Notes under the pieces: generated by a model
The model's input: only the letters and a program-made list of their open reading frames with translations
Told to the model about the DNA's origin: nothing
The model's database searches: none
Shown here: piece after piece, positions 449 through 15,642 of the stretch
Layout: each line of letters begins with the position of its first letter
Numbering within the stretch: the stretch's first letter is position 1
Translations under genes and position numbers: made by a program
IMG/VR virus record: IMGVR_UViG_3300021964_009988
Location: 1-24,276 of that record
Length of the DNA stretch: 24,276 bases
From: a virus
Direction: 5' to 3' (one strand)

Positions 449-482
449 TAAAAAAGCAGGCAAGAGATCAACCTTGCCTGCT
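449..482 (-). terminator. Intrinsic terminator of the structured RNA
   Basis: A perfect 10-bp inverted repeat (AGCAGGCAAG at 455-464, CTTGCCTGCT at 473-482) with an 8-nt loop is followed on the minus strand by a T-rich tract at 454-446. There is no T-tract on the plus-strand side, so it acts on leftward transcription and ends the transcript that covers the structured region 483-665. Confidence 0.85.
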
Positions 483-665
483 CTAATGTGTAAAAGGGCT
501 AACATATACGTCATGATCGTTTCTGTGCCACCCTTTCGACTAGTCATTGCGTGATATGTTGCCACCAACCTCGCCAACATATCTGATGAGTTCAAACGCT
601 CATCCCCGACTCAGGAATTTCCGCTCCTGACAGGCGCGCTTGATGAATTAAAACTCATCACTCCC
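449..665 (-). ncRNA. Candidate structured phage ncRNA (~215 nt)
   Basis: This stretch holds no ORF of note but several perfect hairpins and ends in a strong terminator. Visible stems: TGATGA/TCATCA (655-660 with 641-646), TCAGGA/TCCTGA (611-616 with 625-630), GATGAG/CTCATC (599-604 with 585-590), a 9-bp GATATGTTG/CAACATATC stem (553-561 with 575-583) and AAAGGG/CCCTTT (493-498 with 531-536). Some arms are interchangeable: 652-660 can also pair for 9 bp with 584-592, and ATATGTT/AACATAT arms occur three times, so alternative folds are possible. A TATAAT box lies at 677-672, about 8 nt upstream of the proposed 5' end, but I see no good -35 element at 17 bp. The RNA could instead be processed from read-through of the gene upstream. 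I do not recognise an Rfam family. Confidence 0.6.
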
Positions 666-786: not shown

Positions 787-1104
787 TTAGTTAGCTACTA
801 CATCTTTTAGTCTTGATAGTGCAAGTTTAGTTGCACCTTCAAAACCTGTAACATCAAATCCGAAAGACTCGATATCACGCAAGATTTCCTTTTTGCTCGG
901 ACCTTCTTGCTTTGAAGCTGATTGTTTTGGAGATGCGATATACACACCTTCACGAACCAACTTTGAACGAACTGATCGAACAGATTTATCAAGTTCGATA
1001 GCAATGTCTTCTATTCCGTCATTGCCTAATTCATTATACATTGTGACCATTTGGTCGACCATTGCTGCTGTGTAGTTAGCAGACTTTAGGATAGCTTCAG
1101 CCAT
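787..1104 (-). CDS. Small helix-turn-helix-like phage protein
   Basis: This 105-residue protein has a clear ribosome site (GAGGTG before ATG 1104). Residues 30-55 (IEDIAIELDKSVRSVRSKLV) read like a helix-turn-helix: a short helix, a turn after the hydrophobic LD, and a basic recognition-type helix. The C-terminal third is predicted helical and ends with a basic/hydrophobic mix. It sits alone between its own promoter (1176-1204) and its own terminator (721-775), as expected for a separately regulated DNA-binding protein. Its target is not known. I infer a regulatory or nucleoid-type role from the HTH-like segment only. Confidence 0.6.
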   Translation of the reverse strand: MAEAILKSANYTAAMVDQMVTMYNELGNDGIEDIAIELDKSVRSVRSKLVREGVYIASPKQSASKQEGPSKKEILRDIESFGFDVTGFEGATKLALSRLKDVVAN

Positions 1105-1492: not shown

Positions 1493-2158
1493 AAAAACAG
1501 GGGGAGAATGTGTTCTCTACTAGCGAAGTTTAATTTTGAACGTGTCTAGTACTAAGTACATCTCTGACTTGACTTGCGTTCGGTACTAACAGCACTCCCC
1601 TATCGTCTTTGTGGTAGGTTTTTTTACGATGGTTACCTTACCGAAACATCAAAATGATCTTAACATAGCCCCGCTTCGCCCGCTTGTTAAGGGAGTATTC
1701 CGACCTATGAAACCTTCTAGCGAAGGAATATAGAAAAAATACTCTTACCGAAAACGGGTGCTCTACTCGCGCAATAGGTAGGCGACACATACGGAGGAGC
1801 ACACCGTTAGCTGTTAGGGGAGGTATATCCGCGCCTCCAAGACTGTTACAAGGAGCACACAACTATTTGGTACTCTACCTGCTCTACGCGACTTAACCAC
1901 TTTGGTAGGTTTCGCTCCTCCTCTGGCATTTTTTACGTATAATCCAGTTTTGACGATGATGATGTCGCTTTCCATCTGCGTGAAGTTATCGCCTTCAATA
2001 CGACACTTTCTCGTAAGTGCAACGATCAAAGAGAGGAGAGGCTGAGACGGTTTCCGTGACTCCGTTGCATCATTAACCGATTTTACCTTTCGCAACGCTT
2101 ATCGCAACCAGGGCGACCATGCTGCTTGCTCGGAGGATGATGCCTCTCTTCATTTGAT
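1493..2158 (-). ncRNA. Candidate very large structured phage ncRNA (~665 nt)
   Basis: A roughly 750-nt gap between genes (1469-2223) contains a GC-rich block; 33 of 60 bases at 1741-1800 are G or C, against 14 of 60 at 4141-4200 in a coding region. Self-complementary elements fill it: 8-bp closing pairs 2143-2150 with 2029-2036 and 1914-1921 with 1793-1800; hairpins 2048-2052/2075-2079, 2004-2008/2015-2019, 1819-1823/1834-1838 and 1875-1879/1904-1908; a nested arm of 7 bp (1693-1699/1738-1744), 4 bp (1705-1708/1730-1733) and 5 bp (1713-1717/1722-1726) with a tetraloop; 1599-1606 with 1626-1632 (one bulge); and a final stem 1501-1506/1595-1600 followed by a T-tract at 1497-1493. A promoter at 2165-2193 predicts a 5' end near 2158, just where the structure begins. 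Short ORFs inside lack convincing protein character. Size and phage context recall the GOLLD and ROOL classes; membership is unproven. Confidence 0.65.
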
Positions 2159-2164
2159 ATATAG

Positions 2165-2193
2165 AGAATATCAAAAAAATAACCGCCAGGCAA
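2165..2193 (-). promoter_or_regulatory. Phage promoter for the large ncRNA
   Basis: TTGCCT (2193-2188) and TATTCT (2170-2165) are 17 bp apart, and the -10 is preceded by TGA, an extended -10 context. The predicted start near 2158 coincides with the first base-paired segment of the structured region. The -10 is also inside an 8-bp TTTGATAT/ATATCAAA inverted repeat (2153-2175), a possible operator. Confidence 0.55.
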
Positions 2194-3215: not shown

Positions 3216-4547
3216 TCATATCCAAGAGGCAAATAAGTCCCCTAAAGTAAAAAACAAAGCATATAATCTATCTTGTAAAAGATAGATAAACAAGAATGGA
3301 AGAGTATCGTAATTTCTTAGTAAATAACCTATAGGAAGTAGGGATAAAAAAACAATTACAAAATACGCCCCTTGAAAAGAATAAGAACCAAAAATATAGA
3401 TAACATAAGTTAAAAGACAAAAGACACCTATGTTAATATACTTTTGAGGTATGTAATAAAGGTATTTAACATATTTTGCAAAAGGCCAAGCCAGTAGCAG
3501 TCCAAGCAAATTAATTAATATTAAGTATTTTGCAAAAGAAGCGATGTAATACTCAAGGTTAAAAATAGAATCTAAGTCCCCTCCTCTCGCTAAAACTGTA
3601 TTATAAAATATTAGTTCTGAGCCGCTAAGAGGAATTCCTATTACAAAAAGAGGTAGCAAAGAAGCAAAAATTGCAGCATTATTTGCAGTTTCTGCGCTGA
3701 CTAACGCATTGTAGTTACCTTCTTCATAAGTGCCTTTCTTCTTTTCAATATTAATCTCAGACTTATAAGCAACCATGGAAGAAGCAGCTACACCCGCTCC
3801 AGGCATTAATGATACAAAGAATCCTATAAAAGTACCCCTGATGGCACTTGAGATATTTTTCAAAAAATATCTAAAATGTTTTATAAAACTCTCAGTTTTG
3901 AGATCCCCTACAGCATTAGAATACCCATAGTCTTTTAATAGTTGAGGGAAAACATAAATAGCCCCTATCACGCTTAAAAAAGGAAGCCCTGTAGATAAGT
4001 CTGGATTATCATATACTAAAAAACATTCACCACCTCTGCTCATAATTTTAGAGCATCCAATACTACCTAAAAACCAAGCTAATCCTATAATAACTGCGCT
4101 AATAATAATTCGATTAGTACTAGTAATAATTAATAGAGCTACTACACCTAAAAGTAATATTCCTTGTAAATAAGAACTGAAAAAATAAACTAAATACTGA
4201 AGTAGGGGTGATATGGCTACAATTAGTGCCATTGTTAAAAATGCACCTAATAAACTACCTAAAGCAGCCCCACTAATAGCGTAACTACCTAAACCTTTTT
4301 TAAATAGAGTATTGCCCTCTTTTACGGCGGGTATAGAGCTACCCTCACCAGGTATACCTAAAATTGTAGCACTAACGCTACCCATAAATTGTGTAGTAGA
4401 CGCTAATGCTATATAAAAAATAAATAACTCATCAAGAGGTAGAGAAAAATAGAAGGGGTACAGGAGTATGAGTGATACTGTCACTCCTACTCCTGGTACT
4501 AACCCTGCTACTGCTCCAGATAGGACACCTAAAAGGAGAGTATCCAT
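3216..4547 (-). CDS. tctA: TctA-like large membrane subunit of a tripartite tricarboxylate transporter
   Basis: A 443-residue, very hydrophobic protein with about ten to twelve membrane segments. The N-terminal third matches the TctA family: GVLSGAVAGLVPGVG, then QFMGSVSATILGIPGEGSS followed by AVKEGN, the conserved loop of this permease. A second, similar half carries LMPGAGVAASS and ETANNAAI..LLPLFVIGIPLSGS, matching the internal repeat of TctA. Cellular TctA proteins are about 500 residues, so this is a shortened version. It follows the binding protein by 6 nt in the same operon. No small TctB subunit is present in the window. TctA moves organic acids with an ion gradient; the substrate here cannot be read from sequence. 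It would act in the host inner membrane during infection. Confidence 0.85.
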   Translation of the reverse strand: MDTLLLGVLSGAVAGLVPGVGVTVSLILLYPFYFSLPLDELFIFYIALASTTQFMGSVSATILGIPGEGSSIPAVKEGNTLFKKGLGSYAISGAALGSLLGAFLTMALIVAISPLLQYLVYFFSSYLQGILLLGVVALLIITSTNRIIISAVIIGLAWFLGSIGCSKIMSRGGECFLVYDNPDLSTGLPFLSVIGAIYVFPQLLKDYGYSNAVGDLKTESFIKHFRYFLKNISSAIRGTFIGFFVSLMPGAGVAASSMVAYKSEINIEKKKGTYEEGNYNALVSAETANNAAIFASLLPLFVIGIPLSGSELIFYNTVLARGGDLDSIFNLEYYIASFAKYLILINLLGLLLAWPFAKYVKYLYYIPQKYINIGVFCLLTYVIYIFGSYSFQGAYFVIVFLSLLPIGYLLRNYDTLPFLFIYLLQDRLYALFFTLGDLFASWI

Positions 4548-4553
4548 GCTAAC

Positions 4554-5402
4554 TTAATTCCAGTCGTTACGATCAAGAATTACTTTTGCACTTTCAATTG
4601 GATTTTCCATGAAAGCAGTACTTCCACGAGAACGATCAGCTTTCATGTAGGCACCCCAAGCAGAATCATCTTTATTAACTTCTTCCAAAAAGATTTCTCT
4701 CATCTCATCGATAGAAAGATTACCTTTATAAGCAGTAAGCTCATCAGTTGCATATTCGATGCCTCCAATAGTTGTTACCGAAGGAGTACCATCAAATTCG
4801 CCACCAGTGAAGTTGTAGTGGGCAGTCATTACATCTTCGTTACGGTAGTATCTTTTTGCAGAGTTTAAATAACCATAAGCTACTTCGCCATTAAGAACAG
4901 CGTTAGTTAAATCTTTTGAACTTGCATACACAACTTTTTTAAGATCAACATTGTTTGCAGAGATGATAGCATCAACATCATTTCCAGTAGCTTCTGTATG
5001 TCCTACAGTAGTGCCGTCTTGTAAAAGAGGCACACCTACGTCTTTAAGAGATACGATAAATCCAGTTTTAAATTCAGCGTTCAGAACACTGTCTATTCCT
5101 GTGAAAATCTTATCACAATATTGTTCGCCTATATAAGCATTTACAAATCTCCAGATGACACTGTCGCCATTTTTTGTAGCTCGGTCAACCATAACAGAAG
5201 TTTTTAAACAGCCGTCTGTGTGCATGTAAACTACGTCATCAAACCTATCTTCTAGGTCTTGGACAAGAGCAGTTTGAATTGAAAAGTTACTACCATTAGC
5301 ACTTCCCCCATTTAAAACATATAAAGTTTCAGCAGAAGCAAGAGATGTAGTAGCGAAAAAAGAAGCGGCAACTAAGCCAAAGATAGAATTTTTTAAATTC
5401 AT
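4554..5402 (-). CDS. tctC: TctC/Bug-like periplasmic substrate-binding protein
   Basis: The first 24 residues form a signal peptide (charged start, hydrophobic core, ASA cleavage site before Glu25). The remaining roughly 258 residues start ETLYVLNGGSANGSNF, which corresponds to the first strand and ligand loop of the Bug/TctC periplasmic binding fold; the protein is smaller than cellular members (about 300-330 aa). Its direct coupling to a TctA-like permease is the main support for the call, because primary similarity is modest. The ligand is unknown. It is the first gene after promoter 5459-5487, with a short leader that contains a hairpin and a T-run (5427-5452). The family is probable, not certain. 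Confidence 0.65.
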   Translation of the reverse strand: MNLKNSIFGLVAASFFATTSLASAETLYVLNGGSANGSNFSIQTALVQDLEDRFDDVVYMHTDGCLKTSVMVDRATKNGDSVIWRFVNAYIGEQYCDKIFTGIDSVLNAEFKTGFIVSLKDVGVPLLQDGTTVGHTEATGNDVDAIISANNVDLKKVVYASSKDLTNAVLNGEVAYGYLNSAKRYYRNEDVMTAHYNFTGGEFDGTPSVTTIGGIEYATDELTAYKGNLSIDEMREIFLEEVNKDDSAWGAYMKADRSRGSTAFMENPIESAKVILDRNDWN

Positions 5403-14722: not shown

Positions 14723-14811
14723 TGGCTCTAGAGGTAGGAGTCGAACCTACAAGATTAATATCAATCACACAATGAACAGTCGTGCGCGTTTACCATTTTC
14801 GCCACTCTAGA
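14723..14811 (-). tRNA. Class II-shaped tRNA with Asn anticodon GTT
   Basis: A complete tRNA: a perfect 7-bp acceptor (TCTAGAG with CTCTAGA), D-arm GCG...CGC with GG, anticodon stem CACGA/TTGTG (one G-U) with loop CTGTTCA, T-arm GTAGG-TTCGACT-CCTAC, G73 and an encoded CCA. The anticodon at 14777-14775 reads GTT, for Asn codons. The variable region is 17 nt and folds as GATT/AATC, a long class II arm, as in Leu, Ser or Tyr tRNAs; the D-arm also resembles tRNA-Leu. Base 37 is C, unusual because this site is normally a purine. It lies 6 nt downstream of the AsnRS-like gene. Confidence 0.85.
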
Positions 14812-14817
14812 ATATAG

Positions 14818-15642
14818 TTAATTAAGCGTATCTAACGCAGCTATCATTCTTGTCATGCCAATTCCTCCACCAACACGGGGGAAAAAGTCAAACTCTAAGA
14901 ATTTTTCTAACTCTGCTTCAACTCTGTCTTTGCCGAATAGCTCAAAAAGTAGTTTTGAGTAAGCACCTTCTGTAATTGTGTGAAAGGTATCTCTCATTTG
15001 CTCTACGTCGCATGAACGCTCTGCTGAACCAATAGTCTCCATTCCTCCAAGTATAACATCAATCTTTTTAGATGTTTTTCCGTCATCGTTTCTACTCATA
15101 TTCCAAAATGGAGAGGTCATCTCAGGAAAATCTGTAATCATAGTAGACCCACACTTTTTAAACATAGAAGTTTCGTGCTCAGCCTCCATCTCAACTGTCT
15201 CTTCTAAACCAAAATAAGTTTGCCACTCTCTATAAGTTTTCTCAGTTAGATCGTCAAAGCCTAGATACTCACACAGAGCATATTCCATTTCTTTAAGATC
15301 ATCTATAGTTCCTGGCATTTCAAACTCAAACATAGGAAATATAATATCGTGTCTTCCTGGTATTGCATTTGGTTCTTGCCTATAAGAAGTAGAGACACAA
15401 AAAAAGCCCTCTTCGTTAGGGGCTGATAATAGTTCATGTTCTAACCACATTTGACCTGTTTGTGGGAGTGGCCATACTTTTCCTGCGTAGTTATACGTTG
15501 CTACATTGAAAGGATCTTCGCATGCGGCAAGTATTGAAAGTCTATTCTGTGTATGTACTTCTTTGAACCCTTTGCTCAAAAAAAATGACCTTAAAAGGCC
15601 AACAGTATCTGTAAATTTTGTAGGTGATATTAGTTGTGTCAT
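14818..15642 (-). CDS. Class II aminoacyl-tRNA synthetase core, AsnRS/AspRS type, no anticodon domain
   Basis: The 274-residue protein is a class IIb catalytic core. Motif 2 is visible as SYRQEPN (Arg88, Glu90) leading to FPMFEFE (102-108), motif 3 as GGGIGMTRMIAAL (258-270, Arg265), and QTGQMWLEHELL (61-72) matches the substrate-side helix of Asx enzymes. The N-terminal OB-fold anticodon-binding domain (about 100-130 aa in AsnRS) is absent: the core begins within 10-15 residues of the Met, and AGGAG before ATG 15642 fixes that start. Known stand-alone cores of this type include the archaeal asparagine synthetase derived from AsnRS, so it may make free asparagine rather than charge tRNA. The neighbouring Asn-anticodon tRNA argues the other way. 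The fold is sure, the function open. Confidence 0.8.
   Translation of the reverse strand: MTQLISPTKFTDTVGLLRSFFLSKGFKEVHTQNRLSILAACEDPFNVATYNYAGKVWPLPQTGQMWLEHELLSAPNEEGFFCVSTSYRQEPNAIPGRHDIIFPMFEFEMPGTIDDLKEMEYALCEYLGFDDLTEKTYREWQTYFGLEETVEMEAEHETSMFKKCGSTMITDFPEMTSPFWNMSRNDDGKTSKKIDVILGGMETIGSAERSCDVEQMRDTFHTITEGAYSKLLFELFGKDRVEAELEKFLEFDFFPRVGGGIGMTRMIAALDTLN

Follow-up and report, generated by a model that had tools for sequence, protein, structure and literature searches.

The stretch of DNA analysed here, which we call the window, comprises all 24,276 bases of an IMG/VR viral record that probably represents a fragment of a genome; nearly all its long ORFs lie on the minus strand. The features that concern us are collected in Table 1. 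Adjoining the TctA permease gene, in a phage, is the gene for a secreted-looking 282-aa protein without Pfam match. As for the virus itself, the terminase of a 173-kb contig bearing one homologue of the RNA (L096; homologous loci are given L numbers throughout) has its nearest relatives, at ~41% identity, in T5-like phages, e.g. Erwinia phage KEY and Pectobacterium phage My1; the T4-type capsid family PF07068 gave no match, its controls being equally silent.

Positions 1493-2158 had been read, from the window's sequence alone, as a very large and elaborate phage non-coding RNA with its own promoter, perhaps of a new class. That much stands, as does the observation that the region's GC (0.43-0.485) exceeds that of its neighbours (roughly 0.28-0.39 in most flanking windows), while the strand and the promoter and terminator ends do not. 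The object so described was also incomplete: the region holds two elements, RNA-A and RNA-B, and a third part of the same system, RNA-C, lies outside it, ~1 kb away.

Table 1. Features of the window, and of two homologues in the last row.
Feature	Position	Strand	Basis or remark
RNA-A promoter, TTGCCT (2193-2188), 17 bases, TATTCT (2170-2165)	2165..2193	minus	Geometry kept in homologues
RNA-A, ~500 nt, approximate ends	1655..2158	minus	Model R2 match, M and A3 hairpins, homologue alignment
RNA-A 5' domain (A5)	2023..2156	minus	Covariation; model R2, 121 bits
RNA-A middle hairpin (M), invariant UGUCGCCUACC	1757..1805	minus	Alignment A5 and stem versions, by inspection
RNA-A 3' hairpin (A3), UUAAC...GUUAA around conserved AGCGGG...GGGGCU	1659..1691	minus	Covariation
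RNA-B, ~160 nt, U-run end at 1500-1493	1493..1653	minus	Covariation; model R1, 150 bits
H-type pseudoknot, RNA-B 5' end: GAUG/CAUC and GGUA(A)GG/CCUACC, A-rich third loop	1613..1650	minus	
RNA-B closing helix, GGGGAGUG...CAUUCUCCCC	1501..1600	minus	Covariation; G-C becomes C-G at two positions
DUF1289 gene, between RNA-B and 105-aa gene	1208-1468	minus	Not at this place in L002-L006
Gene for 105-aa protein, between RNA-B and RNA-C	787..1104	minus	
RNA-C core: small hairpin, GUCGGGG, hairpin around UGGCGAGGUUGGUGGC	548..640	minus	Covariation; model R3, 76.8 bits
Intrinsic-terminator-like hairpin and T-rich tail, downstream of RNA-C	453..484	minus	13-pair stem, 6 G-C pairs
TctA tripartite tricarboxylate transporter permease gene	3216-5402	minus	Pfam
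Class II tRNA-synthetase-like gene (PF00152)	14726-15642	minus	Directly adjoins tRNA-Asn gene
manA domain inside large RNA	L098:2831-3000; L100:692-861	minus	RF01745 above cut-off

Coding capacity, strand and promoters

The claim that 1493-2158 holds no credible gene is upheld by comparison with L002, an 87% identical homologue used as the reference for substitutions. An unusual or degraded protein-coding region could be argued from minus-strand ORFs of 93 and 74 aa, yet in the two longest ORFs of that strand the three codon positions have taken substitutions about equally (5/4/3 and 4/3/5), as opposed to 13/9/42 in a real neighbouring gene taken as control; the codon-like substitution in one frame that would have spoken against an RNA is thus absent from both. 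Gaps relative to L002 include ones of 22 and 11 bases, which break the frame, stop-free lengths match those of shuffled sequence, and Pfam gives no match. We regard a coding region as refuted by the substitution pattern, and its residual probability as negligible.

The sequence-only reading had placed the RNA on the plus strand, a reading that we discard in view of gene direction, G-U pairing and promoter position. Across 15 loci, ORFs of at least 100 aa amount to 25,496 aa on the minus strand versus 796 aa on the opposite one. Summed over the named helices, the minus strand shows 59 G-U cells against 10 A-C cells, and since G-U cells would be A-C mismatches on the opposite strand, it is the minus strand that is read. 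Promoter-like sites are no commoner than in shuffled sequence (15 versus 15.4), which leaves the plus-strand promoter once placed at the first stem without weight. With the strand wrong, both ends were wrong as well: the terminator seen as a stem and T-tract at 2132-2147 has a weak tail, CTTCATTTGA, and lies inside the 5' domain of RNA-A.

The RNA does have its own promoter, but at the other end, on the 2190 side and on the minus strand. Its geometry, TTGCnn-17-TAnnnT with 21-23 bases separating the end of the -10 from the GGCATCATCC motif, is found in 20 of the 22 loci scored (L003 and L105 are left out of the 20, the automatic scorer having chosen another site in each). To judge from this sequence pattern, the site at 2193-2165 likely drives RNA-A, whose start we have placed from the promoter. 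RNA-B has separate promoters in L003, L004, L006, L104, L102, L116, L118 and L112, and in many loci they stand 8-9 bases ahead of the pseudoknot; in the window, L092 and L095, A and B are contiguous, with no separate RNA-B promoter. The promoters of these RNAs appear to resemble strong early phage promoters.

Covarying structure

On both strands the single sequence folds better than 20 shuffles, though modestly so (z of -2.6 on the plus strand, -2.3 on the minus), and it is with homologues that the case for a large structured RNA, made earlier from one sequence, becomes decisive. In all elements tested (A5, A3, B and C), 94-98% of cells are paired, a figure that our picking of structures while viewing the alignments favours more than it does the double changes. 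Compensatory changes support each element, covariation being 2.2-3 times that of shuffled alignments, with 0/500 shuffles reaching the observed value; the shuffles ignore relatedness, for which slid controls correct, and these lie far lower. Matches to the covariance models (2156-2023 and 1653-1493) fit the boundaries first proposed, and the region almost certainly represents a real structured RNA family.

The 5' domain of RNA-A consists of a closing helix, an AUCAU/AUGAU helix, a CYGR/YCRG helix, a variable arm and a side hairpin. Over 16 sequences and 22 pairs, 94.3% of cells are paired, with covariation of 0.280 versus 0.120 (sd 0.015) in shuffles (0/500) and 0.04-0.11 in slid controls. As regards the GNRA-type loops proposed earlier, the GCGAAAG/GCGCAAG of homologues is a conserved joining segment of this domain and not a hairpin loop. 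Downstream, the M hairpin keeps its invariant segment while its stem takes the versions GGUGUGCUC/GAGCACC, UACGCUC/GAGCGUA and GGGAGUGCUC/GAGCACCC, and the A3 hairpin (14 sequences, 10 pairs, 95% paired) shows double changes in 6 pairs and covariation of 0.497 versus 0.228 (0/500).

RNA-B, for which 17 sequences and 28 pairs give 98.5% pairing, has a covariation of 0.330 versus 0.111 in shuffles (0/500) and at most 0.10 in slid controls. The first stem of its pseudoknot pairs perfectly in 19/19 sequences and occurs in four versions: GAUG/CAUC, GAAG/CUUC, GUCG/CGAC and GUUG/CAAC. Within the closing helix, AGUA and GAA strands face each other (1587-1584 with 1515-1513; 1521-1518 with 1581-1579), both invariant, in an arrangement that resembles, and may be, a loop-E motif. 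RNA-C (11 sequences, 10 pairs, 97.3% paired) reaches a covariation of 0.945 versus 0.354 (0/500). A small element D (GGCUG...GUAACAAA...GGUCGG) shows apparent covariation in L093, L096, L104, L108, L116, L003 and L004 (alignment A7); it was not found in the window.

Module order among homologues

Homologues of the RNA occur in ~28 IMG/VR contigs, L002-L006 having been found by neighbouring genes and L091-L120 by DNA patterns drawn from conserved blocks. The RNA-A 5' motif is present in 24 contigs including the window, RNA-B only in four more, and RNA-C in L113. Several homologues are near copies, so that the independent lineages number perhaps eight. The 198-aa gene of the window has many relatives, of which only L011, on the same contig as L002, had the RNA. 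BLAST against the INPHARED phage collection returned no match for the RNAs of the window and L004, and for L098 and L102 only ~50-60 bases of promoter-like sequence in enterobacterial and other phages, which on our own reading of the sequence are probably promoter matches. Among genomes of 84,980 bacterial and archaeal species the only match, L115 (Balneolaceae), lies inside a 569-aa ORF and is attributed to chance, as is L117, which lacks RNA-B features. A conserved tRNA-like sequence (GTGGCAGAGTGGTTATGC[GA]TAATTAC...GGTTC.AATCC) stands just after RNA-A or RNA-B at L003:3917-3987, L095:785-855 and L107:131-201; it seems to be without a normal anticodon arm, and ARAGORN makes no call.

Whole-contig searches with models R1-R3 find A, B and C together in 15 contigs, in different orders. 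In the window, L002, L092, L095, L003, L004, L006 and L104 the order is A5-M-A3-pseudoknot-B, the 105-aa gene and C, with A, B and C as separate or partly joined units; D precedes C in some of these. In L093, L096, L102 and L116 it is pseudoknot-B, A5, a second pseudoknot, C and D (with M and A3 where seen), D thus lying on opposite sides of RNA-C in the two groups, and in L098, L100 and L091 it is B, A5, C. In the permuted lineage B is followed by a single long RNA in which C sits within A, between A's 5' and 3' parts, and the second pseudoknot within that RNA is of the RNA-B type (L102:9138-9214, L116:1790-1866, L096, L093). Modules that one lineage carries in cis are therefore separate in the other; this splitting and permutation escaped the sequence-only reading because a single sequence does not show it.

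Alternatively, such linkage might reflect coregulation, within one transcriptional cluster, of structured RNAs that are independent and serve different tasks, the two orders being ordinary phage mosaicism. Each element does fold alone, often under its own promoter, and in L113 the models find C but neither A nor B (an A3-like hairpin is present). We nonetheless find this account rather doubtful, given that A, B and C stay within ~2 kb or little more of one another in two orders across 15 contigs while the nearby 105-aa gene does not stay linked to them, and that one lineage places C inside A. Relatives of the 105-aa gene stand beside the RNAs in the A-B-gene-C lineage and are distant or undetected in the other; it is probably a neighbour and not a partner, and its protein has no relative in INPHARED. 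Where protein-coding ORFs have come to lie between A and B (L003:4056-4691, and the minus strand of L104), both RNAs are retained and RNA-B keeps its own promoter. Five records have A without C, four of which end within ~2 kb of the RNAs; L110 shows no RNA-C match although a further 6.6 kb follow A and B downstream.

The exchange of parts between cis and separate arrangements, the constant linkage and the separate promoters fit a structural RNA delivered in pieces, a reading to which we give even chances. Fragmented ribosomal RNA, in which the parts of a single structural RNA are encoded apart and in altered order, offers a working analogy only, as no rRNA match was found here in Rfam. A and B, joined in the window, would be made as one ~665 nt minus-strand transcript from a sigma-70-type promoter of its own, with RNA-C produced separately ~1 kb downstream; the separately made parts would fold independently and then, binding one another, come together in trans as a single particle during infection, in the manner of fragmented ribosomal RNA. 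Such a particle might be RNA-only, like ROOL and GOLLD, or contain host or phage proteins.

Relation to leaders, cages and known families

The manA and wcaG RNAs of marine phages have been proposed as cis-regulatory leaders, and A, B and C might likewise be leaders or riboswitches for downstream genes. The long RNA of L098 and L100 contains, between the 5' domain of RNA-A and RNA-C, a manA domain (RF01745, 61.3 bits against a cut-off of 55.2); the topology of the RNA-B pseudoknot, with its A-rich loop, is suggestive of small-ligand aptamers, and in the window the DUF1289 gene is directly downstream. This gene, of which viral contigs yielded no relatives, is however missing from that place in L002-L006, and the downstream gene varies among homologues. 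In L003-L006, moreover, RNA-B ends in a stem and U-run, after which a fresh promoter precedes the next gene, and A and B far exceed typical leader size. A leader function thus appears unlikely, and the product would rather act as an assembled particle. In the cyanophage P-SSM2, unlike here, manA stands alone upstream of purL, and the models detect none of RNA-A, B and C. The manA RNA is a candidate riboswitch found in marine phages (PMC2864571); we set aside the idea that its cyanophage form is what remains of the present RNA, since the models found none of the three elements in three cyanophages. The window itself has no manA match in Rfam.

To our knowledge, very few classes of giant structured RNA are known from bacteria or phages. 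One of them, GOLLD, assembles into a 14-mer nanocage. Both GOLLD and ROOL had been suggested as relatives, with HEARO as a further candidate, but Rfam covariance models give no match to GOLLD or ROOL in the window region or L102 (at the gathering score or at E up to 10), nor to HEARO or OLE in the window region. Weak matches to other models in the window (E up to 10) fall far below gathering scores and are treated as chance. Membership in any of the four families is accordingly unsupported, and the RNA is probably a new class.

Size, phage setting and, in several relatives, nearby tRNA genes are nevertheless reminiscent of GOLLD and ROOL. ROOL is phage-borne, large (659 nt for env-120) and elaborate, with pseudoknots, and often near tRNA genes (PMC12286853); the present RNA shares its approximate size, phage setting and a pseudoknot. 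GOLLD, too, is a giant phage RNA with marine members, a tRNA neighbourhood and both a conserved and a variable part (PMC12286853), all of which recur here, tRNA genes lying near L096, L098, L107 and others (in the window the closest is ~10 kb from the RNA). As ROOL and GOLLD have been demonstrated to form RNA-only nanocages, of unknown purpose (PMC12286853), one may ask whether ours is a functional analogue, a homo-oligomeric RNA-only cage whose split pieces are incidental. We consider this analogy improbable: sequence and structure match neither family. Unlike ROOL, the present RNA has pieces that are split and permuted, and it carries motifs of its own (GGCAUCAUCC, GUCGGGG...GGCGAGGUUGGUGG); its pieces are separately promoted, whereas GOLLD is one transcript.

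Assembly from pieces remains the reading we prefer, and a broader picture may be drawn from it somewhat more tentatively: a giant RNA machine, encoded by large phages and built of interchangeable modules, that exists largely as one RNA or as two to three reordered RNAs assembling in trans, and that can take in a riboswitch-like manA domain. A further, unrelated giant-RNA class would help to separate traits common to such RNAs from one family's accidents. Its natural splitting and permutation mark where the RNA can be cut, a pointer to the limits of its domains and to intermolecular assembly, for tests of which the naturally split RNAs are ready-made reagents. The manA domain within some members, finally, places an orphan riboswitch candidate in a new context.
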